DNA of 64,000 bases, from NCBI RefSeq assembly GCF_018873765.1, contig NC_057916.1, forward strand, positions 14,280,001 through 14,344,000, given 5' to 3'. The first letter of the stretch is position 1. Each line of letters opens with the position of its first letter. Of this stretch, positions 3,011 to 52,400 are shown one piece after another. The stretch is from Telopea speciosissima (Eukaryota > Streptophyta > Magnoliopsida > Proteales > Proteaceae). The notes below the pieces were generated by a model that saw nothing but the letters and a program-made list of their open reading frames with translations, did no database searches and was not told the origin of the DNA. The translations under genes were made by a program, and so were the position numbers.

Positions 3011-4149
3011 GTGGGACAACCAGGTTTTTGATCGCCTCCATAGTTGAATTTCTTCCTTCCTCTTTTCTCTTCTTTATTTTTTAGTCATTCCCTCGCAGTG
3101 CACATTCTAATTTGCGCTATTTTGAAGTGAAGATCGTAATCTAATCTTTATGCATTTCGTTATATATGTGAAACTTGATAGGGTTTTTCAAACCAATTTG
3201 AGATTAAAATCCTTAGTTGGCCTGGCAAGTTGTATGTAAAATTTTGCGTGGTGATTATGCAGCTTACATACACCAGTCGTACGAAACTACAGTTGGTATG
3301 TATCTCTGATGTCACCTCCTCTATATTAATGTTTTCCATTGACCCTTTTTGGTTTGCTCTGTTTCAAATCAACTCTATTTTATCTTCTCCCTCTCTTTCT
3401 TTGTTCATCAGAAGCAATATAGGAAGGATCAGATATTTTAAATATCATTTTTGAAGATGTAGAAAGGGCTGAAAAAAGATTGAGAGTTCTTTATAGCCAT
3501 TACTCTTTTCCAAGGCAAATGTGACCAAAATAAGGCTGGAGTTGTGTCCGTATAACAATGATTAACATCTATTTAGCTAGAATAATGAAGAAGCTTAATT
3601 CTATTAATGTGGTAAGCTAGGGTGCTTTTAACAGTGTTTTAGGCTGGAGGTCATGGGTAAGAGATTCCTTGGCAATATGTGACATTTTAGAGAAACCAGG
3701 GGGTATACAGCTGCATCAAGTGCATCATTCTTGGGTTTCCCAACTTCCACTAATGATTCGGTGGATTCCCTAGGCAAGGATGGATTTATTATTATTATTA
3801 TGATCCGAGTTTTCATCGTTATTCATATCAGAAAAACTGCTGTTATCAGTCTGTTTCCTCTTCTTTAATAAACTCACTAGTCCTTTAAAGCAACAGCCGA
3901 TCACTGGTTTGCTCAGTATTCTTTTTCTTATTAAAAGAATTATATGCCATATGTTGGCCTATTATATTAGGTCTCAATAGCAGCTTTATGTGAAATTTTA
4001 TTTTCCAATGCTCTCTATAAGCTCTGAAGCCTGGTGGAACTGTTCAATTCTTTCTTTCTAATATTAATTATGTGTTATTGTTCTCTTTATGTATGTCTCA
4101 TTTGAGGGCAAGTTAAGTGCAAATTATTCTATATTTTCTCAATTGACAG

Positions 4150-21730: not shown

Positions 21731-22874
21731 GACAACCAGGTTTTTTGATCGCCTCTACAATTGAATTTCTTCCTTCTTCCTCTTTTCTCTTCTTTATTTA
21801 TTAGTCATTCCCTCGCAGTGCACATTATAATTTGTGCTATTTTGAAGTGAAGATCATAACCTAATCTTTACGCATTTCGTTATATGTGTGAAACCTGATG
21901 GGGTTTTTAGAACCAATTCAAGGTTAAAGTCCTTAGTTGGCCGGGCAAGATGTATGAAAAATTGTGCGTGGTGATTATGCAGCTTACGTACATGAGTCAT
22001 ACTAAACGACAATTGGCTTGTATCTTTGATGGCACCTCCTCTATATAAATATTTTCCATTGACCGTTTTCGGTTTGCTCCCTTACAAATCAACTCTATTT
22101 TCTCTTCTCCCTCTCTTTCTTTGTTCATCAGAAGCAATATAGGAAGGATCAGATTTTTTAAATATCATTTTTGAAGGTGTAGAAAGGGCTGAAAAAAATG
22201 AGAGTTCTTTATAGTCATTACTCTTTTCCAAGGCAAATGTGACCAAAATAAGGCTGGAGCTGTGTCTATATAACAATGATTAACTTCTATTTAGCTAGAA
22301 TAATGAAGAAGCTTAATTCTATTCATGTGGTAAGCTAGGGTGATTCTAACAGTGTTTTAGGCTGGAGGTCATGGGTAAGAGATTCTTTGACAATATGTGA
22401 CATGTTAGAGAAACAAGGGGGGTAGACGGCTGCATCAAGTGCATCGTTCTTGGGTTTTGCAACTTCCACTAATGATTCGGTGGACTCCCTAGGCAAGGAT
22501 GGATTTTTTATATTATTATTATTGTTATGATCCGAATTTTTTCATCATTATTCCTATCGGAAAAACTGCTGTTATCAGCCTGTTTCCTCTTCTTTAATAA
22601 ACTCACTAGTACTTTAATGCAACAGCCGATCACTGGTTTACTCAGTATTCTTTTTCTTATTAAAATAATTATATGCCTTATGTTTGCCTATTATATTAGG
22701 TCTCAATAGCAGCTCTACGTGAAATTTTATTTTCCAACGCTCTCTATTAGCTCTGAAGCATGATGGAACTGTTCAATTCTTTCTTTCTAATATTAATTCT
22801 GTGTTATAGTTCTCTTTATGTATGTTTCATTTGAGGGCAAGTTAAGTGCAAATTGTTCTATGTTATCTTGACAG
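21731..22874 (+). other. Spacer between PIP and coiled-coil exons, unit 2
   Basis: This is a continuous match to 3011-4149 of unit 1, with small differences and a TTA-repeat at 22,505-22,535. It contains no recognisable coding exon. In unit 3 the corresponding TTA-repeat is the insertion site of an inverted-repeat transposon. Confidence 0.6.
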
Positions 22875-23174: not shown

Positions 23175-23183
23175 GTAAGTGGC

Positions 23184-24251: not shown

Positions 24252-25240
24252 ATGGGTGATTCGACCAATTCTTCATCTACTTCAGATCAGGCACTTAATG
24301 ATGGCCACAGCAAGACAGAGTACCATAGCTTCCCACCAAATCCTATTAAACTAGATGGCTCGAATTATCTTCTCTGGTCCAGATCTGCCTCTTTTGCCAT
24401 TATAGGCCGTGGTCTCACCAGTCATATTAATGGCACTTGTGTTATGCCTACTGCACCAGGACCTGCTCAGGACAAATGGCTTGCCAATAATGGTGTTCTG
24501 ATGTCTTATCTGATAGGCTCTATGACTTCAGATTTACAGCATGACTTTCTTCTTCTGGACACTGCCTCTCAGATTTGGGCTGCATGCAAGGAAACATATG
24601 GGCAGCTTGGCAATGATGCCCAAGTATATGAAATCCGAAAGAAGGTCCTTCACACCACTCAGGGAGAACTTTCAGTGTCCAAATATTATGCTACTTTGCG
24701 CAACCTTTGGTAGCAACTGGACCACTTTTCTGACTTTCACCCAAGTACAGCTGCTGATATTACTTCTTACGAACAACATATGGACAAGATCAGAGTCTAT
24801 GATTTTTTGGCAGGTTTGAATGTCGAGTATGATCAGATTTGGGTTCAGGTGTTGGGTCATAAGCCATTTCCCACACTTGAACAGTCCTATGCCCTGGTCT
24901 CCTCTGAAGAAAACCGTAGGGCTGCCATGTTGCACCCTCCTATTACTGACAGATCGGCACTCCAAGCTGCTGCCCCTGCCACTCCTGCACCTAGTGGCAC
25001 TGCTTCTCGTGGTGATTCTACTACTGGGTCTGTTGTTTGTGGGTACTATCACAAACCTTACCACACCAAGGAGAAGTGCTGGAAACTTCGTGGGAAACTG
25101 GCTGACTTTGAAGCTAAAAGGCTGCTAAGACCAAGACAAAGACTAAGACCAAGGCCCATCAGACTGAGACTGTTATTGCGGCCCCTACTATTGACCCTGG
25201 TCTATCCCAGGATGATCTACAAGCACTCCTTCGTATACTG
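24252..25240 (+). pseudogene. Copia element 2 gag with premature stop
   Basis: The start MGDSTNSSSTSDQALNDGHS leads into FPPNPIKLDGSNYLLWSRSA, typical of copia gag. At 24,711 the frame stops (TAG) where RNLWQQLD is expected, consistent with CAG to TAG. Reading through in the same frame gives HMDKIRVYDFLAGLNVEYDQ and SYALVSSEENRRAAML. Near 25,025-25,080 comes a knuckle-like CGYYHKPYHTKEKCW, with Tyr where the second Cys is expected. A frameshift follows near 25,115. Confidence 0.87.
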
Positions 25241-25244
25241 AGGT

Positions 25245-26420: not shown

Positions 26421-27700
26421 TAGTGGCAAAGCTCAACACCATCAGGGTGTTATTATCTTGTGTTGTGAATCTTGGGTGGGATCTTCAGCAGTTAGATGTC
26501 AAAAATGCCTTCCTCCATGGAGAGCTTAAGGAGGAGGTATATATGGACATTCCACCAGGTTTTTCTGATGACAGGACTAAGGGCAGGGTTTGTAAATTGA
26601 AGCGTGCCCTTTATGGTTTGAACCAATCCCCTAGGGCCTGGTTTGGCAGATTTCATAAGGCTATGATTTCAGCAGGTTACAAGCAGAGCAATGTTGATCA
26701 CACTTTGTTTATCAGACGACTTGGTAATGAGGTTACTCTTCTCATAGTCTATGTGGATGATATTGTGGTCACGGGTAATGATGATGCTGCAATCAGGGAT
26801 TTGAAAATTCTTCTTGGCCGTGAGTTTGAGGTCAAAGATCTTGGTCCCCTAAAATATTTTCTAGGGATAGAAGTTGCTCGATCTTCAAAGGGCATCTTTC
26901 TTTCTTAAAGAAAATATGTCCTTGATCTATTGACTGAGACAGGGCTATTTGGCTGTCATCCTTCAGATACTCCTATGGAAGCTACTACAAAACTAAGGGA
27001 GAAAGAGGGTGAGCTTGTTGACAAGGGTGCTTATCAGCGGTTAGTGGGCAAACTAATCTACCTTTCTCACACACGCCCTGACATTGCAGTTGTTATAAGT
27101 TTGGTGAGTCAATTCATGCATGATCACTATTCCTCTCATATGGATGCAGTCCGTCGTATTTTGAGGTATTTGAAGTCTGCTCCGGGAAAGGGAATCCTTC
27201 TATCTCCCAATAGTCACTTGAAGATTGAAGCCTATATTGATGCCGATTGGGCTGGTTCTCTTGACAGGAAATCTATCTCTAGCTACTGTTCCTTTGTGGG
27301 TGGGAACCTTGTCACATGGCGTAGCAAAAAGCAGAATGTTGTGGCAAGGTCTAGTGCTGAAGCCGAGTTCCGCGCAATGGCACAAGGAATTTGTGAACTT
27401 CTGTGGCTTAGAGGATTATTGCAGGATATTGGTGTTGTTGTCCATCTTCCTATGATGTTTTATTGTGACAATAAAGCCACCATTAGCATTGCTCATAACC
27501 CTGTCCAGCATGATCGTACTAAATACGTGGAGGTTGACCGTCATTTCATCAAGGAGAAGCTTGAAGTCGGCCTCATTTGTGTTCCCTTTGTGAAGTCCAC
27601 TGATCAACTGGCTGATGTGTTCACTAAGGGGTTGAGTAGCAAGCTGTTTCATCCTATCTTAGTCAAGTTGGGCATGCATCATATATATGCACCAACTTGA
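26421..27700 (+). pseudogene. Copia element 2 reverse transcriptase and RNase H
   Basis: RT starts late, at AKLNTIRVLLSCVVNLGWDL, with [20 protein letters not shown]. The canonical beginning (the WKxAM...TWxLVxLPxGK region) is lost in the internal deletion. YGLNQSPRAWFGRF and LLIVYVDDIVVTGNDD (catalytic YVDD) follow. At 26,906 the frame stops (TAA) where CAA of FLSQRKYVLD is expected. RNase H continues from 26,930 with YIDADWAGSLDRKSISSYCS and ends with DQLADVFTKGLSSKLFHPIL and HHIYAPT. Confidence 0.9.
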
Positions 27701-27707
27701 GGGGGAG

Positions 27708-27901
27708 TATTAGCTATATGGCCAGAATACCGTGGGGGTATTCTGATCCTCTTTCTTTTGATATTTTATTTATTTCGTACATGTGGTTTAGTCCCACATT
27801 GCTAATGTACAATTGTTTCATTCTTCATTATGATTATAAATAAAGATGTGCTTGGGATGACTAAATCATCCAAGCCTTTCCCTAATTTAAGTCTGTCTAC
27901 A
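27708..27901 (+). repeat. Copia element 2, 3' LTR
   Basis: 194 bases. The first dinucleotide is TA where the other LTR has TG. The end CTGTCTACA is followed by the GTGGC target copy. Confidence 0.92.
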
Positions 27902-34152: not shown

Positions 34153-34261
34153 AGAAGAGATTGAAAATCTAAAAATATGGGCTCAAATTTGTGTCCAGAA
34201 AATAGAAGAATTGGCCAAGGAGAGTACGACAATGCACCAGGTTTGAGATCCAATGTTTGCT
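34153..34261 (+). pseudogene. EFR3-like exon (IWAQICVQK), unit 2, cut by a LINE
   Basis: After acacaacag the exon reads REEIENLKIWAQICVQKIEE then LAKESTTMHQV, followed by an in-frame TGA where Leu is expected and then DPMFAY. This matches the KVWAQICxQKxxELAKESTTMRRVLDPMF block of plant EFR3-like proteins. At 34,262 the minus-strand LINE begins with its T-run, so the insertion is inside the exon. Confidence 0.88.
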
Positions 34262-34371
34262 TACTTTTTTTTTTTGGGTGAATAAATATATATTACCAAA
34301 CCCCAGGAGGGGGCAGGAAAAGAGGAAGGGATATACAAGGGAAAGAGGGTGGGGAGAAACAACAAGCCAAC

Positions 34372-36850
34372 CTACGTAGAGGTAGAAGGGAATAAACTAG
34401 ACAGATCAAGGTTGTTCCTAGGGGAGTCCCAGACCGCACGAAGACAGGTATGGCTGAGTTTGGAAGAGACTTCAAAGGAGATGGCTTTCCAAATCAGATC
34501 ATAAGATCGAGAGTTGGAAGTCCATCTCCTAAGGTTCTGCTTCATCCAAATGTGGTAAATAGTAGCTCCAAAAATCAGCTTTCTAATGGCGTCGTATATC
34601 GAGGACCCAGAGAAGGACTTAACCATCCAAAGCCATTCTCTCTCAAAGTGAAGCTGTCTCCTGTTGCGGGGCCAGATCGAGGAAAGGGCTTTTTTCCAGA
34701 TGGTAGAGGTAAAAGGGAAGCAAAGAAGAGGTGGGGGATGTCCTTAAGACCATTCCAACAAAGGGAGCAGGCAGAGGAAACATGGATGTGACGGTGTATC
34801 AGGAAGGCTTGGGTTGGAAGGCAAAGGCAAAGGGATCTCCAGGCTGTGATACTATGGCGAGGGATATAGCCTTTGAACCAAACTAGGTTGTTGTGCCAGG
34901 GGATGGTGGGGGCAGTGTCTCGAACAAAGTTCCAAGCCGAACTGGTGCTAAAGACTCCATTGGGGGAGGGCAGCCAAAGGGTTATGTTCGCATGTGGGGG
35001 GGGGGGGAAGGGGGAGGGGAGGGATTGTAGGCCAAATTCGAGAGACAATGGAGGGATTGAGGTGAGGGGGGGAACCAGGATCCAGAGGAAATGAGACAGG
35101 AGAGGGAGGCATTTTTAGGGAGACCAAAAGAGTAGATCACCCTGGGGCCAAGGACACAGTAGAGGACTCTAAGGGGGTACCAAGGGTCAAGCCAGAGGGA
35201 AGTAGAGGAGCCATTTACGATAGAGGAAGAGATGCCTCGAAGGGCAATGGGGCGAAGGGCAAGGATCTTGCGCCAGATCCAGGAGGAGTCAGAGGGGGTG
35301 GGAATAGTCCAGATGGAGTCAGACTTGAGAAGATGAGAGTAGACCCAATTGACCTAGATGGAATCATGACGGGAGGAGACTTTCCAGATCAGTTTAAGAA
35401 TGCCTATAGTGTTGGAGTCCCGGATACGTCGTATCCCAAGACCACCCTCGGATTTGGGAAGGCAAATAGACTTCCAGCTAACAGGATGGAGGAATCTTGA
35501 AGCGTCAATCCCTTTCCAAAGGAAAGCACATAATAGGCATTCCATGGCCTGGATGGTGCTTTGGGTAAGTCGAAAATCCCACTCCAGTAAATGTAGGAAG
35601 CTTGGAGGACAGAGCGGATACAAATAAGGCGGCCAGCGTAGGAAAGGAGCTTACTTTTCCAAAGCTGGAGGCGCTTGCGGTTGTTATCTAACATAGGAGC
35701 ACAGTGGTGATTGGAAAGCTTGGCCGGGATGAGAGGAAGACCAAGGTATTTAACCGGGAGGGAACCGATGGAGAATCCAGTCAGATGTAGAAGGGAGTCT
35801 CTATCAGAATCGGAAATACCAGAAAGGAAGATTTTGGATTTATTGAGATTAATGCGAAGGCCCAAGAGGGTCTCAAAAAGGTGGAGGGAATCCATGATAG
35901 CAAAGATGGAAGAGTGAGAGGCCTTGGAGAAGATCATCAGATCATCTACAAAAACCAGATGGGTAAGGTTGATGTGCTTACATTTAGGAATGGGAGAGAT
36001 GAGATGGAGATCAGTCTTGGATTGAAGACTCCGAGAGAGGACTTCCAGAGCGAGGGAGAACAGGAAGGGGGAAAGGTGGCAGCCTTGGCGAATGCCCACT
36101 TTAGAGTGGAAGAACCTGGCCGGAGAGCCATTGACTAGAGCGGAGAAGGAGGGGGAGGAAATGCAAGCATAAATGAACGAAGGCTGGGGGGAAGCCCATT
36201 TGAGAGAGCACTCCACAAATGAAGTCCCAACGAAGGGAGTCAAAAGCTTTGTGAAGATCAATTTTCAGAATGGCTGTCGGAGAGTGGGATTTGCAATCAA
36301 ATCCACGCACAATTTCAGAACAAAGGATAATGCTGTCCGCAATGCTTCTCCCAGAAATGAAGGCGGACTGGTTGGGGCTGACCAGGGAGGGGATCACAGC
36401 CTTAATTCTGTTGGCAAGGATTTTGGCAATGAACTTGTAGATGAGATTGCAGAGGGAGATAGGCCTAAAGTCGGAGAGAGAAGTGGCTCCATCTTTTTTA
36501 GGGATGAGGCAGATGAAGGTCTAGTTGACCTGAGCCAGCTGGCTGGGTTTGAAAAAGAAGCCGTGAATGGCTTTGAAGAGATCTCCTTTAATGGAATCCC
36601 ACCTGCTCAGGGAGAATCCCATACCGAACCCATCAGGGTCGGGAGCTTTGTTGGATTTGTGGGAGTGAATGGCCTTGGAGATCTCATCATGAGAGGGAAT
36701 GGCAATGAGGGAATCCGCAATCTGGGGAGCGATAAACTTGTTGATGAGGTCAGAAGGGAGAGGAGGGGAAAGGGGGGGGATTGAAAAGTTCGGAGAAGAA
36801 AGAGATGGAGGCAGATTTGATATCATGGACCGAGGTAAGGGGGGAGCCAT
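34372..36850 (-). pseudogene. LINE RT and zf-RVT domain, minus strand
   Basis: Minus-strand frames show IHSHKSNKAPDPDGFGMGFS (the usual APGPDGF now has Asp for Gly), SLVSPNQSAFISGRSIADSI, KIDLHKAFDSLRWDFICGVL, VGIRQGCHLSPFLFSLALEV and LTHLVFVDDLMIFSKA. The zinc region follows with FVRDTAPTIPWHNNLVWFKG and SACSLCWNGLKDIPHLFF, and RRWTSNSRSYDLIWKAISFE closes. At least four frame changes are needed. Identity with the 31-kb copy is visibly high. Confidence 0.87.
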
Positions 36851-37309
36851 CAGGGGAATGCAAGAGGGTGATGGAATTAGAGTTGAGTCTAGCTTTTAGG
36901 GACCTGTGAAAGTAAGCTGAGTTTGAGTCTCCCAGCTCTAACCACTTGATGTGAGACTTTTGGCGCAAGAAGCTTTCCTCCAGGGAGGAGAGAGAATGCA
37001 ACTCCTCCGAGAGGAGTTTCTCCTCAGAGGCAAGGTCAAAGTTGAGAGGATCAGAACGGAGTCTGGACTGAATAAAGGAAAGGTTGGATTTGGAGGAGGA
37101 AAGCATGGAATTGATGTTACCAAAGGTGGAGAGATTCCAGCTTTTGAGGGCAGCATTGGTGTTGCGGAGCTTTCTGGCCAGGGCAATGAGGGGGAGGGAG
37201 GGGGAGGAGACCAGAGTGCGCCAAGCCTTCAGAGCAGTGGGGAGGAAGAGATGGTGGGAGGTCCACATGTCAAAGAATTTGAAAGGCTTGGGACAGAAGG
37301 AGAATAGGG

Positions 37310-38104
37310 TTAGATAAGGATGTGACAAGGACAATGATCAGAGAGGCCCTGAAGGAGGAAGTTGGCAAGGGAGTGCAGGAAGGAGGTGAGCCAAGCTTCA
37401 TTAGAGAGGAAGTGGTCAAGCTTACAAGCGATGCGATCAAGTTCAACTCGACGGTTGTTCCAAGTAAGGAAAGAGCCAGTCCAGCGAAGGTCCTCGATGC
37501 CTAGATCTTCTAAGCACTCGTTGAAAGCAAGGACGGAGGAAGAGTCGATTGGTCTGCCTCCCAGTTTCTGATTTTGAGATCGCACCACATTGAAGTCACC
37601 ACCTAATCCCCTAGGAATGGAGTCCATGGAGGCCTTGAGGAGGGAAAAATCAGACCATAGAGAAAGACGGCCAGCAACTTGGTTGCAAGCATAGACAACC
37701 GTCAGGTGGAAAGTGGAATGGGAATTAGGAATGGAAAGGCTGAGATTGAGGAACTGGGAAGAGGAGTGGGAAAGGGAGATGTTGATTTTGGAGGGGTCCT
37801 AGAGGAACCAAATCCGACTGTTAGGGAAATGGTTGTAATTGGAGAGAAGGGACCAAGATGGGGCAATAGAGGCAGCAATGCGGGAGGCATTTTCTTGCAA
37901 AACACAGGTTTCCAAAAGGGTACAAAAAGAAGAATGGGTGGATTTTATGAGGGATCTAATGTCCTGATGCTTAGCTAGGGAGTTAAGACCCCTGACATTC
38001 CAAATGAAACCTGCAGACATGACAACTAGAGGGGGGCAATGACCGCACCAGAGGGGTGCTTCTGTAGCGAAGACGGTAGAAGACAATAGCAGGGCTGCGG
38101 ACAA
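37310..38104 (-). pseudogene. LINE endonuclease domain, minus strand
   Basis: The APE-like nuclease starts FIWNVRGLNSLAKHQDIRSL, with LLETCV supplying the catalytic Glu. The frame is broken near 37,800. It resumes in the middle with GGDFNVVRSQNQKLGGRPID and RWTGSFLTWNNRRVELDRIA, ending LSDHCPCHILI with the catalytic Asp-His. This domain nicks target DNA to start reverse transcription. Confidence 0.85.
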
Positions 38105-38114
38105 GAGGCCTGTG

Positions 38115-39290
38115 GGGGGGGGAGGGGGATCAAGGGGGGGTGAGGGGGGTCTAACGGTAAAGTCATGCGAGTCAAAGCGGAAGAGGGGGGTAGGTCAGAC
38201 TGAGGAGGGGAGACAAAGGGGAATGGCCGAGAGGGAGGGGGAAGAGATGGATTGGGTCAGGGAATGGGATGAGGGGTTGGGGAAATGCTCGTGGTAGAGA
38301 TGGGCTGGGGGTTGAAAGATGAGATTGTAAATAAAGAAGGACTGGGCTTGGGCTGGGAGGGAGTGGGTTAAGAGGGGGAGAATGGGTTGGGTCGTAATGC
38401 TGGGCCGGGGATTAAGAGAGGGCAGAGCCGAGATGTCATAGGCCTGGGGGGAAGGACCAGTAAGGTTGAAAGGGGAAAAGGGCTTAGATCTAAAGGGAGG
38501 GCACGTGGAGGCAAAGTCAAAGGCCAAGGGTAGGTAGCAGGGGGTAAAATAGGTAAAGTAGGGGGAAAAAGGGGGGTGATCAAAATTAGAAAAGTTTAAA
38601 GATGGCCTTACCAACAGAGAAAGGGGCGAAGCGAGAGAAAGGCAAGGGTTGTCCTTCATCAGGGCCTCGACAGAAGCAACCGCAGGAGAGTCTTGCTGGC
38701 CAGGAGATCTACTGAGCGTCACATCGAAGGTAGGTAAGGTAAAGGTGTTTCTTCCAAACTCAAAGGGTATGACAGTGAGCAGATGCAGAGATGTCATCGG
38801 ATCTGTGCCAGAGGGAGCTCCAATGGCATGGTTCGCTTCAACTGGTTAATCGAGGGAGGAGACATACCTAGGTATCAAGGAGGGGGGTGAAGGGGGTCCA
38901 ACAGACAAGGTCATGCGAGTCAAAGCGAAAGAGGGGGCAGGTCAGACTGAGGAGGGGGGATAAGGGGGGGAAATGGCCGAGAGGGAGGGGGAAGAGATGG
39001 ATCGGGTCAGGGAATGGCCTTACCGACGGAGAAAGGGGCGAAGCGAGAGAAAGGTAAGGGTTGTCCTTCGTCAGGGTCTCGACAAAAGCAACCGCAAGAG
39101 GATTTTACTAGCCAGGAGATCTGCTGAGCGTTACATCGGAGGTAGGTAAGGTAAAGGTGTTTCTTTCAAACTCAGAGGGAATGGCAATGAGCAGATGCAG
39201 AGATGTCATCGGATCCGTGCCAGAGGGAGCTCCAATGGCGTGGTTCGCTTCAACTGGTTCATCGAGGGAGGAGACATGCTCAGGTATCGA
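38115..39290 (-). repeat. Tandem duplication inside the LINE ORF1 linker
   Basis: The interval 38,120-38,270 is repeated at 38,876-39,022, and 38,640-38,870 is repeated at 39,050-39,290. The second unit lacks the roughly 370 bases found between them in the first. Copies are about 90 percent alike by eye. Confidence 0.75.
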
Positions 39291-39395
39291 GGAGGCAGTC
39301 ACGAAAGGAGTCTTTGTAGCAGGAGCCTAAGGGGCCTCGGTATCAGGAGTTGTCAGCTCCGTCGTGCAAGGAGGAGCACCAGCGATAACATGAAG

Positions 39396-40271
39396 TTATT
39401 CAGTGCTGATGGCGTCTTGGTGGCGACAACGGCGACGACTGCGATTTTGTCTCTTGGGCTCTCGTTCACGACTATCAGGTCTGGAAAATCCAAAAGAAGT
39501 CGAGGCAGAGAAGAGGGATAGTTCTCCAAGGGGAAAAGCAGGAGCAGGCATCTCCAAGGAAGTCGGTGCAGAGTTGTGGAAGATAGCTTCAAGGTGAGCT
39601 GCTTGGGATGGCGACTGCATGGTTGCTGTAGAAGGCGGTGAATCGTTGAGAGGATTCAGGTCAAAAGAAAGGGCTGTCGTGGCAAGGGACACCGAGGCAG
39701 AGCAATGGGTGATAGAATGGCCAAAGATTTTACACTGCTGACAGTGAGGGGGGATCCATTCATATTTCACCGGCTGTTCGAACCAGAATCCGTCTTCTTC
39801 CTTGATAGAGATGGACGATGGAGGAGGAGAATCAGCAGAGACGTCCATGCATAACCTGGCGAAGGAGAGGCGGTTCATTTTGAGGGTGCGAAGGTCAGTG
39901 CGTAGCGGTAGTCCAATTACAAAGCCTATACGGCCTAAGCATTCTTGGGTCCAGTAGTGCAGAGGCAGACCAGGAAGATTGATCCACAAGGGAATGGTAT
40001 TGAGGTCGACCTTGTGGAGAAGGAGATGGGGCTGCCATTGACGGAGGAAGATAGGTTTGGTTCCTACCATCCAAGGGGCTCCATCAAGGGCGCGAGACTT
40101 GGCTTCGTCAGAGAAGAACTTGAAGATGAACACTCCAGAGTCGAGAAGGTAAACGTCAAGCAAGCCAGCGACTTTCCATTGCTTAGTTAGAGAGGCTTTG
40201 AGTAGGTGGGTATCTGTAAATTGTAGGAAGGAAAGTTCCGTTTCATTGTTTCTGTTCTTGATGAGCCACAA
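39396..40271 (-). CDS. LINE ORF1 protein, DUF4283 with CCHC knuckle (minus)
   Basis: An open frame of about 290 codons begins MWLIKNRNNETELSFLQFTD. DUF4283 features include VAGLLDVYLLDSGVFIFKFF, LPLHYWTQECLGRIGFVIGL and MNRLSFARLCMDVSADSP. The knuckle CQQCKIFGHSITHC lies at about residues 174-187. The C-terminal region is Ser/Pro-rich. The true start may lie a little upstream, because the N-terminus looks short compared with the 502-codon ORF1 at 6497. It belongs to the LINE. Confidence 0.8.
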   Translation of the reverse strand: MWLIKNRNNETELSFLQFTDTHLLKASLTKQWKVAGLLDVYLLDSGVFIFKFFSDEAKSRALDGAPWMVGTKPIFLRQWQPHLLLHKVDLNTIPLWINLPGLPLHYWTQECLGRIGFVIGLPLRTDLRTLKMNRLSFARLCMDVSADSPPPSSISIKEEDGFWFEQPVKYEWIPPHCQQCKIFGHSITHCSASVSLATTALSFDLNPLNDSPPSTATMQSPSQAAHLEAIFHNSAPTSLEMPAPAFPLGELSLFSASTSFGFSRPDSREREPKRQNRSRRRCRHQDAISTE

Positions 40272-40290
40272 TTGTAGGAAGGAAAGGCGC

Positions 40291-40607
40291 TGCTGCGTCT
40301 TAGCCTTTCCCTTTTCCGGCCTATGGGATCCTCATTAGATGGTCATCGGAGTTTGCCAAGCACTCACTGGTGCTGGTATTGGACGGCGTCAGACCTTGAG
40401 GCCTCCACTGCAGATCCCATAACCTCCCTGTGGCAGTTAAGGTCTCCAAGAGAGGGGATTTGGAGCTGTTTTAATTGAAGGGAAAAATTGACATTTAAAT
40501 TTTATTCTTAATACCGTCCCCTTAGAGGTGCCGAGTGTATATTTTGAAAACACAGGGGGTCAAACTGTATTTAGGGCAAACCTCAGGGGTTGCCGCGTAA
40601 TGTACCG
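40291..40607. mobile_element. Right end of an inverted-repeat DNA transposon
   Basis: 40,520-40,607 is the reverse complement of 43,095-43,180: CCTCAGGGGTTGCCGCGTAA here against TTACACGGTGACCCCCTGAG there. The terminus is followed by TTTTTATTA (40,608-40,616). The part from 40,291 to 40,520 is not recognised and may be element interior. The terminal type (GGGTAAATTACAC...) and 9-base flank suggest a Mutator-like element. Confidence 0.65.
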
Positions 40608-41308
40608 TTTTTATTATTATTATTATTTTGTTATGATCCGAGTTTTCAACGTTATTCCTATCAGAAAAATTGTTGTTATCAGCCTGTTTCTCTTCTTCTT
40701 TAATAAACTCACTAGTACTTTAAAGCAACAGCTGATCCCTGGTTTACTCAGTATTCTTTTTCTTATTAAAAGAATTGTATGCCATATGTTTGCCTATTCT
40801 ATTAGGTCTCAATAGCATCTCTATGTGAAATGTTATTTTCCAATGCTCTCTATGAGCTCTGAAGCATGATGGAACTGTTCAATTATTTCTTTTTGATATT
40901 AATTCTATGTTATAGTTCTCTTTATGTATGTCTCATTTGACGACAAGTTAAGTGCAAATTGTTTTATATTTTCTCAATTGACGGGTTGAAACAGCTGCGT
41001 CTGAAAGGGAGCAGTTATTGCTTGTGAAAATCTCAGAGCTTGAAGCCAAGTAGATCATATTGTGAATCAAATAACTAGGTTGAACCTTCATATGTGCACG
41101 TTATCTCTTTCTGTTGGACTTCGTGTTTGCTTGGCCAAATGGACCAAGAATCTGAATTACAAACAAGACATAAAAATGATTCTGACCTCCTTTCACAAAA
41201 GAAAAAGGAATCTCTCTTTCCTGTTATATATGTACTTTCCTTTTCCTTTGATGTAGGATGATTAATCTAACTGATGAGGTAACTGAGGCAAGGTTGAAAC
41301 ATCTGCAG
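40608..41308 (+). pseudogene. Coiled-coil exons and flank, unit 3
   Basis: The stretch matches 3785-4450 and 22,505-23,174. Exons 40,985-41,049 and 41,257-41,308 read VETAASEREQLLLVKISELE then AK, and MINLTDEVTEARLKHLQ. The first exon has lost its acceptor (GACGG in place of GACAG) and its last base changed (CAA|gtag). No EFR3-like exon follows in this unit. Confidence 0.65.
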
Positions 41309-41828
41309 GTAATTGGCTGAGGAAGGTTCCTTCTGAGCTCTTCTAAATTGCAAGGTACTGCATGATTTTGTGGTAGAAACACTGACTTTCCCAGATAAAG
41401 TGTATTTTAAGTTGAAATAATTTGATTGAATACCCATTTTGCTATACTGATTCAGTCATAAACTTATAACTTGAGAAGGAGGGAGGGAGAAAAACTGACT
41501 TCCTCAGATAAAGTGCATTGCTGAACTTAATACCCATTTTTCTGTATTGGTTCATCAGTCATAAACAACATGAGAGAGAGAGTGAGAGATGGATGATGGT
41601 GTTTTCAATTGGAATTTGAACTGGGCAGGTGCAGAAGCTGAAGGTGAACTTTTATGGATTTAAGACTAGTACTGCTTTTCGGAGCTCAATGTTAGGAGAT
41701 GAAAAAAAAACTTAAGGGAGAAAGCGGACGTGGAAGAAGAAGAAGCCGTTGAGGAGGGGGAGGAGGAAGAAGCCTCGTCTTCAAATTTTGTACTGCTAAA
41801 ACCCTGGCTGGAAAAAAATCCTTAGAGT
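41309..41828 (+). other. Unit 3 intron remnants and junction
   Basis: 41,309-41,395 matches intron after the coil exon in unit 2 (27,900-27,990). The rest contains two similar segments (ACTGACTTTCCCAGATAAAGTG and ACTGACTTCCTCAGATAAAGTG) and GA-rich DNA. No gene is present. Confidence 0.45.
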
Positions 41829-42282
41829 CATGAGATGAACTCTGTTAAGATTATACTCGCCGCAATCTGCTCTCCTCTCCGAATTGTAGAAGACCAAACC
41901 CTTTTTCTACTTCCATCATCAATGTCACTTTAACCTCTTCTTCGAAGCTGAGGAGGCGGTTCTTCTCATCCATCAACGCAAGCCCTCCTCCTGCTCCCGA
42001 CACCAGGTTAACCCAACCACAGAAGAAGAAAGAAGTTCCACTCAATTTCGAAAACATCAGAACCAGGTAGAAGAAATTGATTCAGGAAAATAGGCCTGTC
42101 CTATGCATCTTCTTCTACTGCCAATCCCTCCCTTACTATAGCAGCCATCACAGTGGCTTCTTCTATGTTTAATTGCTTGCAATTTTATAATCTCTGTTCT
42201 TTTCTATGATGCAGAGTTCAAAGTTCTTGTTTCAGTCCTGAGGGAAATTACCTTGTCGCTACTTCTTGGGACAACTGGGTTT
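41829..42282 (+). pseudogene. Presequence-like and WD40 exons, unit 3
   Basis: 41,829-42,068 aligns with 1477-1726, but its third codon is a stop and several indels break the frame. The donor context is ACCAG|gtagaag. 42,215-42,282 repeats the RAE1-like exon as VQSSC...EGNYLVATSWDNWVF, with a stop (TGA) at the codon after Pro. It follows the coiled-coil exons of unit 3, which fixes the repeat order of the module. Confidence 0.55.
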
Positions 42283-42654
42283 TTTTTATCGCGGCCGCAA
42301 TTGAATTTCTTCCTTCTTCCTCTTTTCTTTCCCTTATTTTTTAGTCATTCTAATTTGTGCTATTTTGAAGTGCAGATCATAATCTACTCTGTTCGCATTT
42401 CCTTCTTCCTCTTTTCTCTCCTTTATCTTCATTGTGCTCCAAAAGCAAGCATATGAAGGACCGGTTCCGGACTCGTCTATGCCATCGTTGAAATCATCTA
42501 TGCTCTGCAGTTTCAGAAGCCCACTCCAGAGCTGCCAATAACAATCCACCTCTGCGGAGCCTTTTGTTCTCACAACACCTTTTTATTACCTAAAAACTCC
42601 TCCCATATGGGAGGCGCCTATACTACCATTGCCACCGCCAAGAACAATCCACCT

Positions 42655-43070
42655 CTGGTTTTGTTTCATGATCTTCATCCTCGTTTACTGCACCACCGGT
42701 ATCTCTGGTGGGTAATCCATTTTTTCCTTCTTTCTCTGTTTTCTGTTGTTTACAATTTGATTATAAACAATTGTGTGTGTGTGTGTACAGGATGGCATAT
42801 TGACCCAGCAGTGACGTTTGGGCTTTTCTTAGCCCGTAAAGTATCACTAATCTGTGCTGTGATGTGCATGGTTGCACAATGCTTGGGTGTAATGTGTGGT
42901 GTAGGGCTAGTAAAGGCCTTTCAAAAGTCTTACTTTGTGCAGTATAGTGGTGGGGCGAACGAGATCGTCGATGGCAACAGCAAAGGTGTGGGTTTGGCAG
43001 CTGAAATTATTGGTAGCTTCGTCCTTGTCTACAATGTTTTCTCTGCTACTGATCCCAAAAAAAGTGCCAG
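42655..43070 (+). pseudogene. PIP aquaporin fragment, unit 3, NPA changed to DPA
   Basis: An exon end [19 protein letters not shown] lies at about 42,655-42,709. Exon 42,791-43,070 reads [20 protein letters not shown] and continues through [20 protein letters not shown] to [12 protein letters not shown]. The first pore motif is DPA, not NPA. The exon breaks off at 43,070 into DNA matching the spacer before the coiled-coil exons (CTAAGGATGG), so SHVP and everything after is deleted. Confidence 0.85.
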
Positions 43071-43094
43071 AGCTAAGGATGGGTTTTTTTATTA

Positions 43095-43230
43095 GGGTAA
43101 ATTACACGGTGACCCCCTGAGGTTTGCCCTAAATACAGTACGATCCCCTGTGTTGCTAAAATATGCACTGTGGCCCACTGAGATTAGGTTATTTGTTATA
43201 CTCAGCCCTACTCCGTTAGAGCATTCCCGT
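43095..43230 (+). mobile_element. Left end of an inverted-repeat DNA transposon
   Basis: The terminus GGGTAAATTACACGGTGACC is preceded by TTTTTATTA (43,086-43,094), the same nine bases that follow the right terminus at 40,607. The terminal repeat extends about 85 bases. A related but diverged terminus in the same orientation is at 50,766. No transposase is visible. Confidence 0.65.
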
Positions 43231-43329
43231 TAGTTGCTGACGTGTTGGTCATTGATGCTTTAAAATGACAAATATACCCCTAATAGGGTGTGAGCTTACC
43301 ATTTTGCCCATAGGGCAGCCTAAACTTTA

Positions 43330-43403
43330 CACGATCGTCTCTGCTTCTTTTTCTTCTTCTCTTCTTCCTTCTTCTTCTTCATCTTCTTCTTCTTCCTCCT
43401 CCT
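43330..43403 (+). repeat. TTC-rich microsatellite
   Basis: The stretch is made of CTTCTT/TTCTTC runs with few interruptions. Confidence 0.8.
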
Positions 43404-43547
43404 GCAAACTCACCTGCCCCCACCCTTTGCAACCCCATCTTCTTCCTTTGCTTCACTTTTTTTACCTGGATTGCTACCGGATGAAGAGTGGGCGCAGGAG
43501 GAGGAGGAAAAACTGGTGGACAAAAAGGAGTTGCAGCGACGAAGCAG

Positions 43548-44145
43548 GGCTTTGGCACTTTCAACGTCAAGAGCTTCAGCACTAAAGGTGATGGATGAAA
43601 CGACGATAGCAAAATAATTATGCTTAATTCCCATTCTTTTTTCCTCTATAAATAATTTATTCTTCTCCTTTTTTATCTTGACAAGTTTCTAAGATCTTTA
43701 ACCCTAAATTTTGTTCTAACTTACGCAGGCCGTCATGGCAGCATGGAAAGCAGCATGTGGATCTTCAGGTTCTGTGAAGCTTTTCATACCAAAAGGGACT
43801 TTCTTACTCGGTCCCGTTAAATTTGTTGATCCCTGCAAGACCATTGATTCCATTACCGTTCAGATGCAGGTTATCATCTAGTTTCTTCACTTCTTTACTT
43901 TCCTTTCCTTTCTTCCCATACAGATTGAATTTGCCCATTAATGTGTCTATTAATTCTTCTGCAGGGTTTTTTAAAGACAACCACAGACCTGAACAGGTAT
44001 GGTTCTTTGGATGATTGGATCAAGTTTGGATGGGTGGAAGGATTGACATTGACCAAGCTCAAAGGGCCAATCACAATTATATAATTGTTCTCATGGGAAT
44101 GAAGAATCTCCATTCATCTATGAATCATTGGGGAAATTGATTCAG
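43548..44145 (+). pseudogene. Polygalacturonase gene fragment (three exons)
   Basis: 43,548-43,614 reads GFGTFNVKSFSTKGDG, a stop, then NDDSK. Exon 43,729-43,869 reads AVMAAWKAACGSSGSVKLFI and PKGTFLLGPVKFVDPCKTID, ending VQMQ. Exon from 43,965 reads GFLKTTTDLNRYGSLDDWIK and FGWVEGLTLTKLKGPITI. These match the N-terminal third of exopolygalacturonases, pectin-degrading glycosyl hydrolase family 28 enzymes. The catalytic NTD, DD and GHG motifs lie further downstream in the family and are absent. Introns are retained. The position just inside a transposon terminus suggests a captured fragment. Confidence 0.82.
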
Positions 44146-45565
44146 GAACTAGAAGGAAGAAAGCTTAAATCTTTCAGCTCTCAGTGAGAAATAAGGGAGA
44201 AATCAGAGAAGACCCATTACCTGGTGGCTGGTTGAATCCAAGAACATCATATTGACACCGGTTCCGATCGCCTTTATCGCATTTGATATCAACAGAAACA
44301 TCTTTAGGCACCACAAGATTAAGGCACTACTGAGGATTTTTTCCATCCTTGTCTCTCTCGCTTAAAAAAAATAAAATCTTTTTCCTTTTCAAATTTGTTC
44401 AATTACTCTCTAAAACAACTTTCCTTTTCCTTCTCAAAGTCTTTCCCATCTTTTATCTCTCTTTCTTACGACCACGGTTTTGAATTATTATTAAAGTTGT
44501 GAATTCTTCGATTAAGCATTGAAGAATTTTTCTTAATTTGTAATCTCCGATTAAATTTCATTTTGGCTTCCGCTTGCTTTATTATTTTATTTTGAAATGA
44601 CAAACTGATTCCAAAATAAGACTAAGAATGGAAATCATCCTTGGGGGATAAATTTTCTGCTTGTTATTTCCAAAATAATGTAGGACATAATCGTTAGTCT
44701 TTGTATGATTTGTAGGAGCATAATGTCATGATAGAAAATTTTGATTTTAAGTTTTTAGAGAGGGCAGACCACTTGGAAAGTTTTGGCTGATAAAGAAATA
44801 TATGATTGAAACTCATTTATTTTGAACTTTTTAGTCTTCGTTCCTAATAAATGCTCTCACGTGCATCTCCAAGTGCACTTAAAAATAAAAGTTTGAGAAC
44901 TACCTGACCTGATGTACGTCTGAAACCCAACCCAAGAGAATTATCATATTATTCAAAAGGACTAGGGTTTCCTCCAATGCTCATGTGCTTTTGCATCAAT
45001 GAGTGTGAAGGATTTCAAACCGTCAAATAGTGGATTGTTTGTAAGGAGACATGTAAAGGAATCCGCACAAAGGCATCATATTATTCATTTTTTCTATTCA
45101 AAAATAGGTTTAAATTTACTAAATTATTCATCAATTGTTCGAAAATAAGAATTTTTTTATTGACACCTTTTTAGGTGTCAAATAATTTGTAACCATACTT
45201 CTTTGTTCTTTAAATATATCGTAAATTTTTTAAATGAAAATAAATACTATCATTTCACATGTCTATTCGAAAAATGTGCATGACAATGATACTTCACTTT
45301 CAAATTTTTTATATGAGAAAATTATATAAACAATAAGATATCATAATTATTTTTTATTTTTTGGTAAAAAGGATATTACATTTATCACAGCACAGTTTAA
45401 CTTACCTATCTGTGCCTTTCGAGTAAAGTATGTGCTAATACACCCATTAACCTATCTACCTTATAAATATTTGCAGATCTAAAGTAGTTCATTACTTGAA
45501 TCCCTTTAGATAACAAAACAGAAAGGTCAGATGGCCAGTCCTGCTTATGTCCCTGAGTAAACCAG
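44146..45565. other. AT-rich DNA upstream of the phospholipase exons
   Basis: No gene or terminal repeat was recognised. I looked for the missing first phospholipase C exon (ENRSFD motif) and did not see it. The interval may be intron, or the unmatched interior of the transposon whose left end is at 43,095. Confidence 0.5.
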
Positions 45566-46458
45566 TAAAGAGTCGAACCGTCTCTCCGTGTCTGATCCTA
45601 GTTCGCCAGAAATATTCGTCTCTAACGATGCTCGCTTCGTCGACTCCGACCCCGGTCACTCGTTCCAAGCGATTCGAGAGCAGATTTTCGGGTCGGAGAA
45701 CTTCTCTGCCAACCCGGCTCCCATGAATGGCTTTGCTCAACAAGCAGCGAGCATGGGCGAAGACATGCCGAGAACGGTTATGAGTGGTTTCAAGCCAGAG
45801 GTTGTGCCGGTTACCACTGCTTTGGCGAACGAGTTTGCCGTGTTCGATCGGTGGTTCGCTTCTGTGCCTACTTCGACTCAGCCGAATCGGTTTTACGTCC
45901 ACTCGGCCACTTCTCATGGATGCCAGAGCAATGTAAGGAAGGACCTCATCCATGGTTTCCCTCAAAAGACCATTTTCGACTCCTTGGAAGAGAATGGGCT
46001 TTGTTTTGGGATTTATTACCAGAATATCCCTGCAACTCTGTTCTTGAAGAGCTTGAGGAAGCTTAAGCACATAATTAAGTTCCACGATTACAGTTTGAAG
46101 TTTAAATTACATGCCATGTTGGGTGAGCTTCCCAATTATGTGGTGTTGGAACAGAGGTACTTTGATGTGAATTTGTTCCCTGCGAACGATGACCATCCAT
46201 CCCATGATGTTGCGCTGGGGCAGAAGTTCGTGAAAGAGGTTTATGAGACGCTGAGGAAAAGCCCCCAATGGAACGAAACGGCGCTGTTGATCACGTATGA
46301 CGAGCATGGTGGGTTCTATGATCATGTGCCTACGCCGGTTACTAGTGTCCCCAATCCTGATGGGATCCTTGGGCCTGACCCATTTTACTTCAGGTTCGAT
46401 AGGTTGGGTGTTCGTGTACCGACGATACTAATCTCACCTTGGATAGATAAGGGGATAG
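45566..46458 (+). CDS. Phospholipase C exon 2
   Basis: The exon start is placed at 45,566 because AACCAG|TAAAGAGTCG gives [19 protein letters not shown], matching the family after an exon ending in GG; upstream codons in this frame hit a stop at 45,558. It ends GIG|gtcag. It holds the TxPNR, YDEHGG-DH and GVRVP motifs. Confidence 0.9.
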
Positions 46459-49400
46459 GTCAGTTTCTGCTTCTCGTTCTGTTTACTTAGTTTTGGGGTT
46501 ATGTCTCTTTGTTAATTGATGGTATTGCTCTTTTAATCACCTTTAAATTTTTGTCTTTGATGCGTGATTCATTCTGACATCAATAGATTTTCCATTTGTC
46601 TATTAATTTGCTAAATAACAAGCTTTCCCATTTTTTTTTTGGTTAAAATGAGCTTATATTAATAGGAAATAATTAGATCTTACAACCTGTAATATGTCAT
46701 TCCATTAGCGTCATTCCTTATTATAGAGGAAAGAGCTTCTGGAAGACAATCAAGACTAAAATCAACTTCATGAGTTAAATGCACAAAACTAGCCAAATAG
46801 TCAACACAGCCATTGATCTCCCTGACATGATGTATAAAGCTACAACTGCGAAAGCTATCGCGCAAGCAACGAATTTCCTCAAACAACCATAATGCGTCCC
46901 ATTGGGGATGAAAGGATCCCACAATCATTTGCACTGCCACCACAGAATCTGAGCGAACCTGCACCTGCTCCTGCTGGCTCTCCTTAATGAAGACTTGGAC
47001 ATGAATTAGTTTAGAAGTCACTAAAATAGGCTGCAGAGAGACCAAGTCTGGGTTCCACAGTACCCAAATCCGACCAGAGTCAACAATATCACTATTGGTA
47101 CAACAATTCCAACGTCCACTGCGTTTACCGGGGTCATTTAAACCCCGAGTATTCCATGCTCTAAGATTCATTAAAGCGAGGTAGGAGAAGTGGAGCAATG
47201 CAAGGGGCTGCCCCGACCCGGACTGCATTAACCTCAACTCTATCTTCACCAATCACAGCAGGCTCAACATCCTGCAATGGCACAAACCTATTCCCATCAA
47301 TTGATTGATCAACAATAATTCCTGAAGGCTTGGTCCTCATACCCGCGGCACTTTGGTCCACCAAACCAGAATTAGAAGCCAATGACAAACAGTCATTATG
47401 TGGTTTAGCCTCCACCGAACCAGAAGGTTTAGAAACCTGTTGTTTGATGCCACGATTAGTGTCCTTTGCATCAAGGTGGTTGTTAAGGTTTAACAACCAC
47501 CTTAACCTTACCACGATCACCCATTACAATCTCCTTGGACGATGGATTAGACACCTTATCCTTTGAATTACAATTTGACACATCATGTAGCACTAAAGGG
47601 CCAGCCCTCACACCTGTAATATTAGTTCGACCCTTCTCATTTGAAGTGCCAGATGGCGCCTCAATATCCATACCTGCGGTTACACCCCCATTACTGGTAA
47701 CCGTTGTTGACACCTTCGCCGGAACCATAACTGCCACTGCCACTGTGGTCTCCGATGGTGCAGGACGCTTACCACGAGCCTGCCAGGCCGCCAAGGCTCT
47801 TCAATAACCATTCCTTCAACCTGCAACTCCTCAGTAGGTTTGGTTCGATGCACCGCAGCAACTGGGCAATCCTTGTCCATATGATCAAAGATCCTACAAG
47901 CACTGCATATCGGGGGAACCCAGTCATAGTGAACAGATTGCTCCACCAAAGACCCATCCTCCATTGCAATATGGATTGTTGTAGGCAAACCATCAGCAGC
48001 ATTAACAGACACGCAGAATCTCGCAAATGATAGTCTCTCCCGTTGCATGGTCCTCCCATCAGTGCAAATAGAACGACCCAAAACACTGGCAATTCGTCCC
48101 AGAGAACGGCTACCCCAATACTGAAGATTGAGACCATAAAGACGAACCCATAACGGCAACTCAGACTCCTCTCTCTTAGAGAGCGAAACCTCAGGGGACC
48201 ATAGCTTTAATATCAGTGGTCTGGTGCCAAAAGTCCGGGGATCCTCATCAAGGATCTGATGACTCAAATCAGATCCCTGGAAATCAAAGACAAAAACCCC
48301 ACTTTCAAGACCGAAAACTTCCACCGCTCCAACATGGCTCCATTTCTCTTGAACAAACCTTTTCATGGAAGAGAAAGTTGGTATGGGACCAAACACATAC
48401 CCCACTAACGCTGCTTCCCATCGATCAGACTCCTCTGCCAAATCCGCTTTGCAACACACTGCCACCTTCTTCCCAGCGACAACTGCTGGTTCGACAAATG
48501 GGATTTCACAAGCACCATCCCTTACTTTACCACCTGGGAATAAACTCACCCATGAACGCTTGGGACCAACACCTTGCCCAACACCATTTACATTAATGGG
48601 GCTGGAACCAGGATTGTTGGACACAGGAATGGTTGTTTCAGTGACCATAAAACAATCACAGAAACCAGCGCAAGAATTTGACTTCAAACCAGAAATGCTT
48701 CTTCACTCTTCTTCTCTTCCATCAAGAGAAGAAAATTTCCATATAAAACTATTTGGAGCCTTCTTCACAAGCTTTCCCATTTTGTATTAGTTGACATGTA
48801 AACTATGAATAAATAATGTTGACAGTTTTGAATTGAAGGGCAACTGGATGACCAACTCTGTTTTGGGGTGATGAGTGTGCTTATTTTCTTTCCTTGTTCT
48901 TTCTTAGATATTTGTTGTTTCTATCTTGTTTTGGGGTTAGCTGGTGCTCTGGCAAGATTCCATGATTTTGATTAGTATAAAGAAATATATTGGTTGTGCT
49001 AGGTTACTCAGTTACCAAATTTGAATTCTAGCCTATTATGTTATTCATTGAAATAATGAGAAAGTAAAAGAAAAAGATGCAAGTTGAGAAAAAAATTTAT
49101 GGCATGTTATGTTGGTCATTATCTGCTGCAGTTGCATTGGACTGGTTGGATCAATATGATCCTGTATGGAGGCCTAGGCGCAAGAGATGCTGGTGGCAGT
49201 CCAATGGTAGGCGTCGCTTAGGCGATCAAGGCGACACCAGAAATCAAGGGGAGAGAAAGGCGCCTGGACGCCTTGACATCTATGAACACGCCTAATTTTT
49301 TAGGCCATATATGGGGGGTTTAATTCTGCATACGGGACTAGTAGTAGTTAGAGTCTTGTGCCCCAAGTTAAAAAAGTTTGAGTGACGTTAGGATACTTAA

Positions 49401-52400
49401 TAGCTTTTAAGAGTTTTTTTTTTAGTCTCTCGAGTCAAATCAGTATACGAGAGTGGTTATGAGTCCTTTATGGGTCAATTTATGAAATTTAAAGGCTATA
49501 TATTTGTGTACAACCCCCATCACTTGGACATGTTTTGAGTAAAGAAGATTGAGCTTTTTTCACCAGTTTTGGAGTTGTTGAGTTTGCATACAGGATTTGT
49601 ATTCCAGATCTGATCACCCTCCCTCCTAGTTTTGTTCATCTTTCTTCTCAGGGGTGATCTTTCCTCCCTCTTCTCTTCTAGTATTCTTCTTGCTATTTCT
49701 TATAATTATTACTTCTCAGCAGCACCGCTGTTTTCTTCTAATATTCACTTTGCATTATTCTCATATATCTCTCTAGTTAATGATCTGTATCATCTCAAAT
49801 TTAGTACATCAGTGTCTGGTATATTTTCCTATGGAATTCTCATTTCAAATTCTGATTCCTGCATGTAGAATTCTTGTTCTAGAACTGCAGCCCTGTTTTC
49901 CTAGTGCCACTAGGAATTGTCTGTGCAAGTCATACCAGTTCTCTGTTTTCAAAGATAATACTGGACCAGGTTTCGAGCTTGTTCTGATATCTCAGTCCAG
50001 AGTTATAAATTCCCTTTTTTGTTGTCATACTCTCTGTTTCTGCTATCCTATCTATCAATGCTAATATCTTACTGGGTTTTTCCGATTTGGAATTAGCTGA
50101 CATAATTTTCCTAGTTTTTAATATGGTTCTGGTGGGTTTCTCTGTACTGTATGGAATTACTTTGGATGCTTTTTTCCTTGAATGAATTTCTGTGGAACCG
50201 TTTGTTTTTCTATGGAATTAGTCTCCTGCTGTTTTGGAATCTTGGTTTGCCTAGTGTAGTAGCTCAAATATGCTTTCAACAGCGAAAGAAATGGATAAGG
50301 CTTTCTAGATTCTTATCAATGACCAAACCAATAAATAAGAGAAAGAAAACTACTACTCTGCATGATTGCATTAGCAAATTCTAATCCCCCTTGAGCATGT
50401 CTAGGAATGGGAAACTACTCTTATCCAGATATGGTTGTCATTGTGGATACAGAGGAATGTTATCTGTCATGCTCAATGGTGAAAAAGACAAAGTCCTCCT
50501 CTCCTCCCTCTGGCTCTCTCCCCACACGATGTGTTGAAAAGGGGTGGGTTGGGATTGGCATGTGTACTTCTGCTGGAAAATAGTGGCTCTTGGCTCTTGG
50601 TTTTAGTTGTGGCTTTTTGAATCTGCATTTGTGTTGGTATTGTTTCTAATGGAAACCAAACCAATTCCTGCCAATATTGGAAGAGCATAATTTGATAGTA
50701 GAAAAATCAGTAGTACACATATCAACTTTAAGAGTAAGCCCTCTCCAGCACTACTAAATAGAATAGGGTAAATTACACGGACCTCCCCTGACGTATGGCT
50801 AAAGTACACTTCCCTCCCTGTGTTTCTAAAAAGCGCAGAGACTTAAAGGTCGGGGTGTCTATGTGTGCACTCTATCCTCTCGAGAAGACATAAACTCACT
50901 AACATCGGCACCTATCTGACTGGCAAACTCAGGGCTGGGCATTCCACCAGGCCCCGTACAAGGTATCCTCCTCATCTGACTCCTCTTGGAAGATGTTGCT
51001 GAGTTCAGTTGGGTCTTTTTGTTCTTGTCCATCTCAATGCTTATGTGCTACATCTTCAATCTCATGTTGTAGTGCACATACACCAACTACTCAAGATGTT
51101 TATAACCCAATTGGTTCCGCCTCTTGGAGTGGATGAGTGAAAATGTACTCCAGTTGCGCTCGCATCGAACGATAGAACATGTTTGGGAGAGAACCTTAAT
51201 TTCTATCTTCCTCAAGTTAGGTCCATCTCTTCATATAAGGCAACATAGTTGTCAAGGCGCCGCCTTGGCGTCCAAGCGCCTTGTTCTGGCCTTGATTTTT
51301 GGTGTTGCCTAGGCGCCGCTTTGTCGCCTTGATTTTAAACCTCCTTGACCGCCTTGATTCGCCTAGGCGCCTTAACAACTATGTAAGGCAATGCATCAAC
51401 TCTCTTGGACTAACCCAAACCCATTTGGGTATCCATGTGAAGAAGATGAACTGGGTCCAATTGGGTTTTTAGGTTCGGTAGGATATTTGGGAAATATATG
51501 TAATCTTTTATTTCGGTAGCAGTTAGGAAAATTATTAATTTGAGTTTTATTTAGTCTAGGTTTTAGGAAGTAATTAGGAAGTAGATTTTCTGTTTTAGAC
51601 TTCATTTAGGACACCTAAGTTCTTTTTATATAAATATGCTTGTAACGTTGGGCAGATTTGAATGAATGAAAGTTTTTTGGGTTTTGTTACAAGATTGGTA
51701 TGCACAAGGTTGTGTGACTATATCCCCCCTCTCTCAATATCTTCGTCTCTCTTCCTCTATCTCCTCCCTTCTTTTTTCTTTCTAGTTTCTCTTCTTTCCT
51801 TCTGTGACTGTTCTGCCCTGACGGTACCAGCAGTGTCCCTTATTGGCTATCAATCTCTATTCCCTCTCTCCCTTTTTCTCTCAATTTTCGGTCGGAGATT
51901 ACCCTGCCCTGGGCGACCAAACCCTTACAGCCTCTCAGCAAAAATCCCCTCCTGCTGTGAGAATTGAAGTCTACAACTCAGTTTGGCTCAAGCTACCGCC
52001 AGAAATAGTCTCAGAAAGAACTAGTTACTTGGTTGATTGTTAGGACTGACTTGAAGTGCCTTCAATAGAGCTTTTGTTGCGATTCTGTGCCTGAAATTTC
52101 AGGCCAAATAGAGGCCTGTCGTGGAAGTTCTCTCAATCTAAGTTCTTCTTCCTCCCACTGGATTTGTTTGTGACTTAAGGTTGAAGACAAACTTCCAACG
52201 TAAATGATTTAATTCCCTTTACGTCTTGTTTCCAGTATTGCCCCTGTTTCTTTCCATTATTCTCCTTGGCCCTATTTTTACATTTAGTGCCAAGTTTATC
52301 CTCACTCTTTGCTTTTATTCATCCTTATATCCTCCCTCCATCTAAGTACACTTTTGTCTTCTAAAATTTTCTCTAATTACAATACTACCATCCCTTTAAA

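Follow-up and report, generated by a model that had tools for sequence, protein, structure and literature searches.

Transposable elements that have been co-amplified inside tandem repeat units appear as an insertion common to many repeat copies at one site. The locus described here is similar, with a one-site insertion in many copies, and differs in that occupied and empty modules persist and in that one pair of element copies is cut to facing ends. The element concerned also resembles Pack-MULEs, which likewise have a 9-bp target duplication, inverted terminal repeats, and a gene fragment inside, although its terminal repeats are just ~75 bp long and 85-92% alike. For CitMule of citrus, passages in PMC4334395 describe 9-bp A/T-rich duplications and terminal repeats that are short and degenerate (65 bp, 78%). 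The present family shares these features, whereas its members are 1.2-2.2 kb long and CitMule elements, according to the same passages, are ~6.9 kb and encode a transposase.

The window, i.e., the whole stretch of 64,000 nucleotides analyzed (C1:14280001-14344000), was compared with the Telopea speciosissima genome (822.9 Mb, 1,287 contigs). In the window, two termini of one transposon family, a right one (40534-40607) and a left one (43095-43169), are oriented toward each other across an interval of 2,487 bp, and both are bordered by TTTTTATTA. An earlier note on this DNA had placed the end of the right terminus at 40607 and the start of the left one at 43095, each with TTTTTATTA, and reading of the sequence bore this out. 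Aligned with one of them reversed, the two termini are inverted copies, with 62 of 74 aligned bases identical and one gap. The element spans given in that note were correct at these ends but too short in extent, as the element parts are 40204-40607 and 43095-44306:

40204..40607, + strand: right part of the upstream element copy, 404 bp (element positions 1489-1887); 364 of 403 columns identical to the intact element C1:10047369-10049255
40608..40616, + strand: target-site duplication TTTTTATTA, following the right terminus
43086..43094, + strand: target-site duplication TTTTTATTA, preceding the left terminus
43095..44306, + strand: left part of the downstream element copy, 1,212 bp (element positions 1-1219); 1115 of 1237 columns identical to C1:10047369-10049255, 43 gaps

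The middle of the element (269 bp, positions 1220-1488) is absent from both fragments. An assignment of 40204-40474 to LINE sequence was rejected, as alignment to the intact element shows element sequence there. Terminal repeats only 84% alike had hinted at two different elements, but this lost its force with the intact copies, whose own ends are 85-92% alike (61/72 to 68/74 aligned bases in seven copies). A further terminus of this family, of the left type, stands by itself at 50766-50838 and agrees with the 43095 end at 58 of 70 aligned bases, with 8 gap positions. No partner for it was found in the window, and a profile of three ends detected no further family ends above chance there (next E = 1.2). 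The 26-base terminus core had 0 exact matches in viral_contigs and genome_contigs, as expected for a plant, and among the full-text literature matches listed for the terminal motif, the titles were all medical.

The same insertion site is empty in two other units of the array, and its two sides are recognizable around the facing termini:

about 3774..3800, + strand: uninterrupted (empty) insertion site, unit 1
about 22494..22530, + strand: uninterrupted (empty) insertion site, unit 2
40617..41324, + strand: D2, array module sequence that flanks the insertion site on the right; aligns with unit 1 3786-4466 and unit 2 22505-23185
43073..43085, + strand: tip of block D1, which flanks the insertion site on the left

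In units 1 and 2, the D1 side runs directly into the D2 side, as the earlier note had stated, and the two flanks in the window, once joined, form one site that can be aligned through. The note had also cautioned that an AT-rich flank could match by chance. Two random all-A/T 9-mers from the window are equal with a probability of 0.005; the shared 9-mer on its own is modest evidence against chance, and the flanks are stronger. Compared with the flank that units 1 and 2 predict, the 28 bases preceding 43095 have a score of 16. Outside the three loci, 0 of 127,942 positions (both strands counted) reach this score and the highest value is 14.5, making the flank match unique in the window.

A genome search for complete elements with these termini, as the earlier note had advised, found eight at the same site in other array modules among those read, each in the arrangement D1, TTTTTATTA, element, TTTTTATTA, D2:

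C1: complete elements at 14266087, 14272420, about 14572146 (- strand), 10047369, 8106352, and 8129928
C15: complete elements at 16170 and 25447

The element at C15:25447 was judged by its two ends and its length of 1,917 bp only; the other seven were mapped end to end and are 1,837-1,984 bp long. Among the 16 flanking 9-mers of these eight elements, 12 are exactly TTTTTATTA and four have one mismatch. The earlier note had named intact partner ends with other target duplications as evidence against its reading; the complete copies at the array site instead share TTTTTATTA or differ from it by one mismatch. Junctions lead to the same result. Including the window, 11 distinct junctions between D1 and a left end were read (eight exact, three with one mismatch), and 12 distinct junctions between a right end and D2 were listed, of which 10 have TTTTTATTA and two have TTTTTATTG; this second listing was restricted to right ends adjacent to D2. 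For the left 506 bp of the element, the genome contains at least 42 matches (best 40 of 935 candidates scored), and for the right end plus D2 at least 41 (best 40 of 609 candidates scored). The loci read (eight for the left end and 20 for the right end or D2, with the window in each, and eleven 10-kb stretches) were the best matches and are hence biased to close relatives.

Two of the complete elements, C1:14266087-14268070 and 14272420-14274256, are neighbors located 6-14 kb upstream of the window. Read from the first to the second, a right end, a module, and a left end succeed each other as they do in the window, and the two elements are 4,349 bp apart. The window interval 40204-43070 aligns in one piece with C1:14267670-14270590 (2,939 columns, 89.3%). 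Because this interval is collinear with the intact tandem pair, the order that had been regarded as permuted is the normal head-to-tail order of the array. The stretch between the two fragments includes the following blocks:

41400..42653, + strand: array module, blocks Xl, B, and BC, collinear with C1:14267670-14270590
42654..43072, + strand: array block C, aquaporin (MIP) gene fragment; matches unit 1 2395-2813

The window lacks ~1.81 kb between C and the D1 tip, a stretch that the upstream array pair keeps. To the right of 44306, the window self-comparison found no array blocks, and in the 20 kb after the window 18 array and element features were looked for and none was found. The array module is composed of gene-like fragments, namely the aquaporin piece (Pfam MIP, 9.2e-23 on 42457-43092) and a weak WD40-like one at 42219-42281 (E=0.0016, which does not reach the Pfam threshold). 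For the other gene pieces of the array, no name is supported by Pfam; those within 4682-6158 and at 34154-34240 may be 'EFR3/SEMI-ROLLED LEAF 2-like'.

Many units share one insertion site and its duplication, and tandem neighbors are among them, as seen for a transposable element copied with a tandem array unit. We therefore consider it very probable that a single insertion between D1 and D2 was amplified with its module, and that the window holds the space between two neighboring element-bearing modules whose outer halves have been lost. The account in the earlier note (one insertion, duplication of the carrier, and later loss) is thus supported in outline by eight complete elements at one site, two of them adjacent. 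In this history, a ~1.9 kb non-autonomous Mutator-like transposon with a polygalacturonase-like fragment would have inserted once between D1 and D2, and the array would then have duplicated the carrier module with the element included. In the window, the tail of one element copy would be followed by D2-E-Xl-B-BC-C, D1 in shortened form, and then the head of the neighboring copy. Each element would have lost its outer half along with the array beyond it, and both breaks may have been closed by retroposition, with a LINE on the left and a 37-nt SINE-like tail on the right. The truncation points themselves are observed, and we infer the order of the losses.

The nature of the element is indicated by its ends, its cargo, and its relatives elsewhere in the genome. 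It has ~9 bp target-site duplications and inverted terminal repeats as Mutator-like elements (MULEs) do, though the repeats are short for a classical long-TIR MULE. As in Pack-MULEs, a host gene fragment is located between the ends:

43729..43869, + strand: polygalacturonase-like exon inside the element; phmmer match to polygalacturonase ADPG2, E=1.3e-6

This exon matched no Pfam family at E <= 0.01, and the next stretch (43965-44066) had no protein match. Four lower-ranked family members (C1:86.04 Mb, C4, C7, and C8) are complete, 1.2-2.2 kb in length, and carry different 9-bp duplications (TAATTTCTA and GAACCGAAT exact, the other two with one mismatch), which are A/T-rich in three of the four cases. 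D1, D2, and the polygalacturonase piece were absent from the 2.8 kb read for each. That these members have different duplications and no D1 or D2 indicates that TTTTTATTA is shared for a reason other than a fixed target preference. Their own 9-bp duplications would fit a family that behaves as mobile, non-autonomous, and Mutator-like.

At the outer sides, both fragments are fused to retroposon sequence:

34264..40203, - strand: LINE, 5' end cut, fused directly to element position 1489; DUF4283 and RT domains
44306..44342, + strand: dispersed short retroposon-like repeat, 37-nt 3' tail, fused to element position 1219

The LINE is cut inside its first open frame, and all five other copies read extend beyond the cut point. 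Twelve short genome matches begin at the 37-nt tail. In all six of these loci that were read, inspection by eye showed a common body to the left and divergence after the T run, as in a short retroposon. No target duplication was found at the tail or for the LINE, although the same test detects that of a second LINE (about 31197-33982). At each of the two losses, the break adjoins the 5' side of a truncated retroposon, which suggests, by inference only, that retroposition sealed both. More tentatively, and with less than even confidence, the array may be a large macrosatellite of gene fragments (aquaporin, possibly WD40 and others) in which a trapped Pack-MULE was amplified and whose edge lost sequence on either side through deletions linked to retroposons (a LINE and a SINE-like repeat, both 5'-truncated and each fused to one half of the Pack-MULE with no detectable target duplication).

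Other mobile elements and genes are found nearby. The second LINE is located in unit 2 and has an intact duplication, AATAATGAGCAA. Unit 2 also contains a Copia element (23186-27901) with 192-bp terminal repeats that are 98% alike and a duplication of GTGGC or one base longer. Immediately beyond the edge of the array, 45561-46487 is a piece of a non-specific phospholipase C gene (Pfam Phosphoesterase, 5.3e-86; PDB 8hav, 2.1e-117), followed by LINE-type domains at 46683-48702.

Among the other explanations, the best surviving one, to which we give a small chance, is that one module with one element was excised as a circle, opened inside the element with the loss of 269 bp, and reinserted, such that both fragments come from one copy. 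The fragments (1-1219 and 1489-1887) do not overlap and jointly lack only positions 1220-1488, as one reopened copy would also give; by hand arithmetic, two random independent cuts would produce no overlap and a gap this small or smaller with a chance of ~0.13. However, the segment is part of the array and collinear with a tandem pair that the genome contains, so that a circle is not needed. Moreover, the two halves are nearest to different intact copies among the seven compared (the right half to C15:16170 at 6.8% and the left half to C1:14572146 at 5.6%), which is a weak indication that exchange could mimic.

Reversed-ends transposition, in which the right end of one element acts with the left end of another and the intervening DNA is permuted by self-insertion, was initially the leading alternative and is now very improbable. 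It fits the window taken alone and has precedent: permutations of the intervening segment are reported for Ac/Ds in passages of PMC3744419 and PMC3470690, and for the Mutator family VANDAL21 a passage of PMC12312487 proposes alternative transposition with spacer circles. Given the intact tandem pair, however, the mechanism is not required, as intact elements show the same order and duplication, and the intervening DNA at 40204-43070 is not permuted relative to another copy but collinear with C1:14267670-14270590.

We think it just as improbable that an assembly error joined two array pieces. The array is large and repetitive, with at least 152 first-look D2 candidates and copies within 10 kb of the C1 start, but 40204-43070 has a counterpart in the genome that is collinear and 89% identical, and the outer junctions fall in distinct retroposon sequence. 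Least credible of all is chance resemblance, or two independent insertions at one A/T-rich site, since relatives elsewhere do insert at A/T-rich 9-mers in three of four cases but the flank match is unique in the window and the site recurs in all 12 right-end and 11 left-end junctions.

The D2 module family is large, and its copies are found on C1, C6, C15, C17, C79, C86, and C171. The 152 first-look candidates (40 of them scored) are a lower bound, as units 1 and 2 are missing from the match list; the matches listed are 88-100% identical, with that of the window itself included. At L039:1580-6154 (C15:11580-16154), C, D0, and D1 are repeated in tandem every ~1.9 kb before an intact element, which represents a shorter period inside the array. 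A second case of an end before a start is present at 12416-13006 (a copy of 5603-6215), which is followed directly by 13007-13438 (a copy of 5177-5606). No transposon end was seen at the 13006/13007 joint, and this order lends support to array rearrangement as the general cause. Elsewhere in the window, 60372-60626 is a near-perfect inverted repeat with arms of 102 nt (98% complementary) and a spacing of 51 nt.

The history of the modules was further examined with a D2 tree of 20 copies, 10 occupied and 10 empty, including the copy in the window itself (entered as L009); L025 and L026 were dropped for D2 matches of <300 bases. Occupied modules cluster on this tree (three changes compared to 7.1 in shuffles, with 0/500 as low), and for empty modules 1/500 shuffles was as low. 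However, the occupied modules do not form one clade, as a single change was seen in 0/200 bootstrap trees and the starred branches force at least two. Divergence among the seven intact elements is 3.4-7.3% (mean 5.7%) and that among their D2 flanks averages 6.6%, yet the two are uncorrelated (r = -0.34 over 21 pairs, with two of the seven flanks short). Element and flank thus do not share one history, and exchange or loss must be added to the account of a single insertion. Exchange between modules since the amplification has probably occurred; it would account for both patterns and would blur any clock. Based on K80 distances over 653 gap-free D2 columns, units 1 and 2 differ by 0.061, and by 0.088 and 0.086 from unit 3. 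Units 1 and 2 are nearest each other in 1,947 of 2,000 bootstraps, with three overlapping 95% intervals. The earlier note had expected a relative date for an array duplication. The order of events is retained, with units 1 and 2 lacking the element, but the date is not, given the lack of a single clade and of correlated divergences.

The locus also marks the limit of such a method: where copies seemingly exchange sequence and the trees of element and flank diverge, the order of events can be read and their date cannot. With respect to order, it provides a clean worked example of how the history of an array can be read from transposon ends, in which a shared 9-bp duplication points to one insertion and later amplification.
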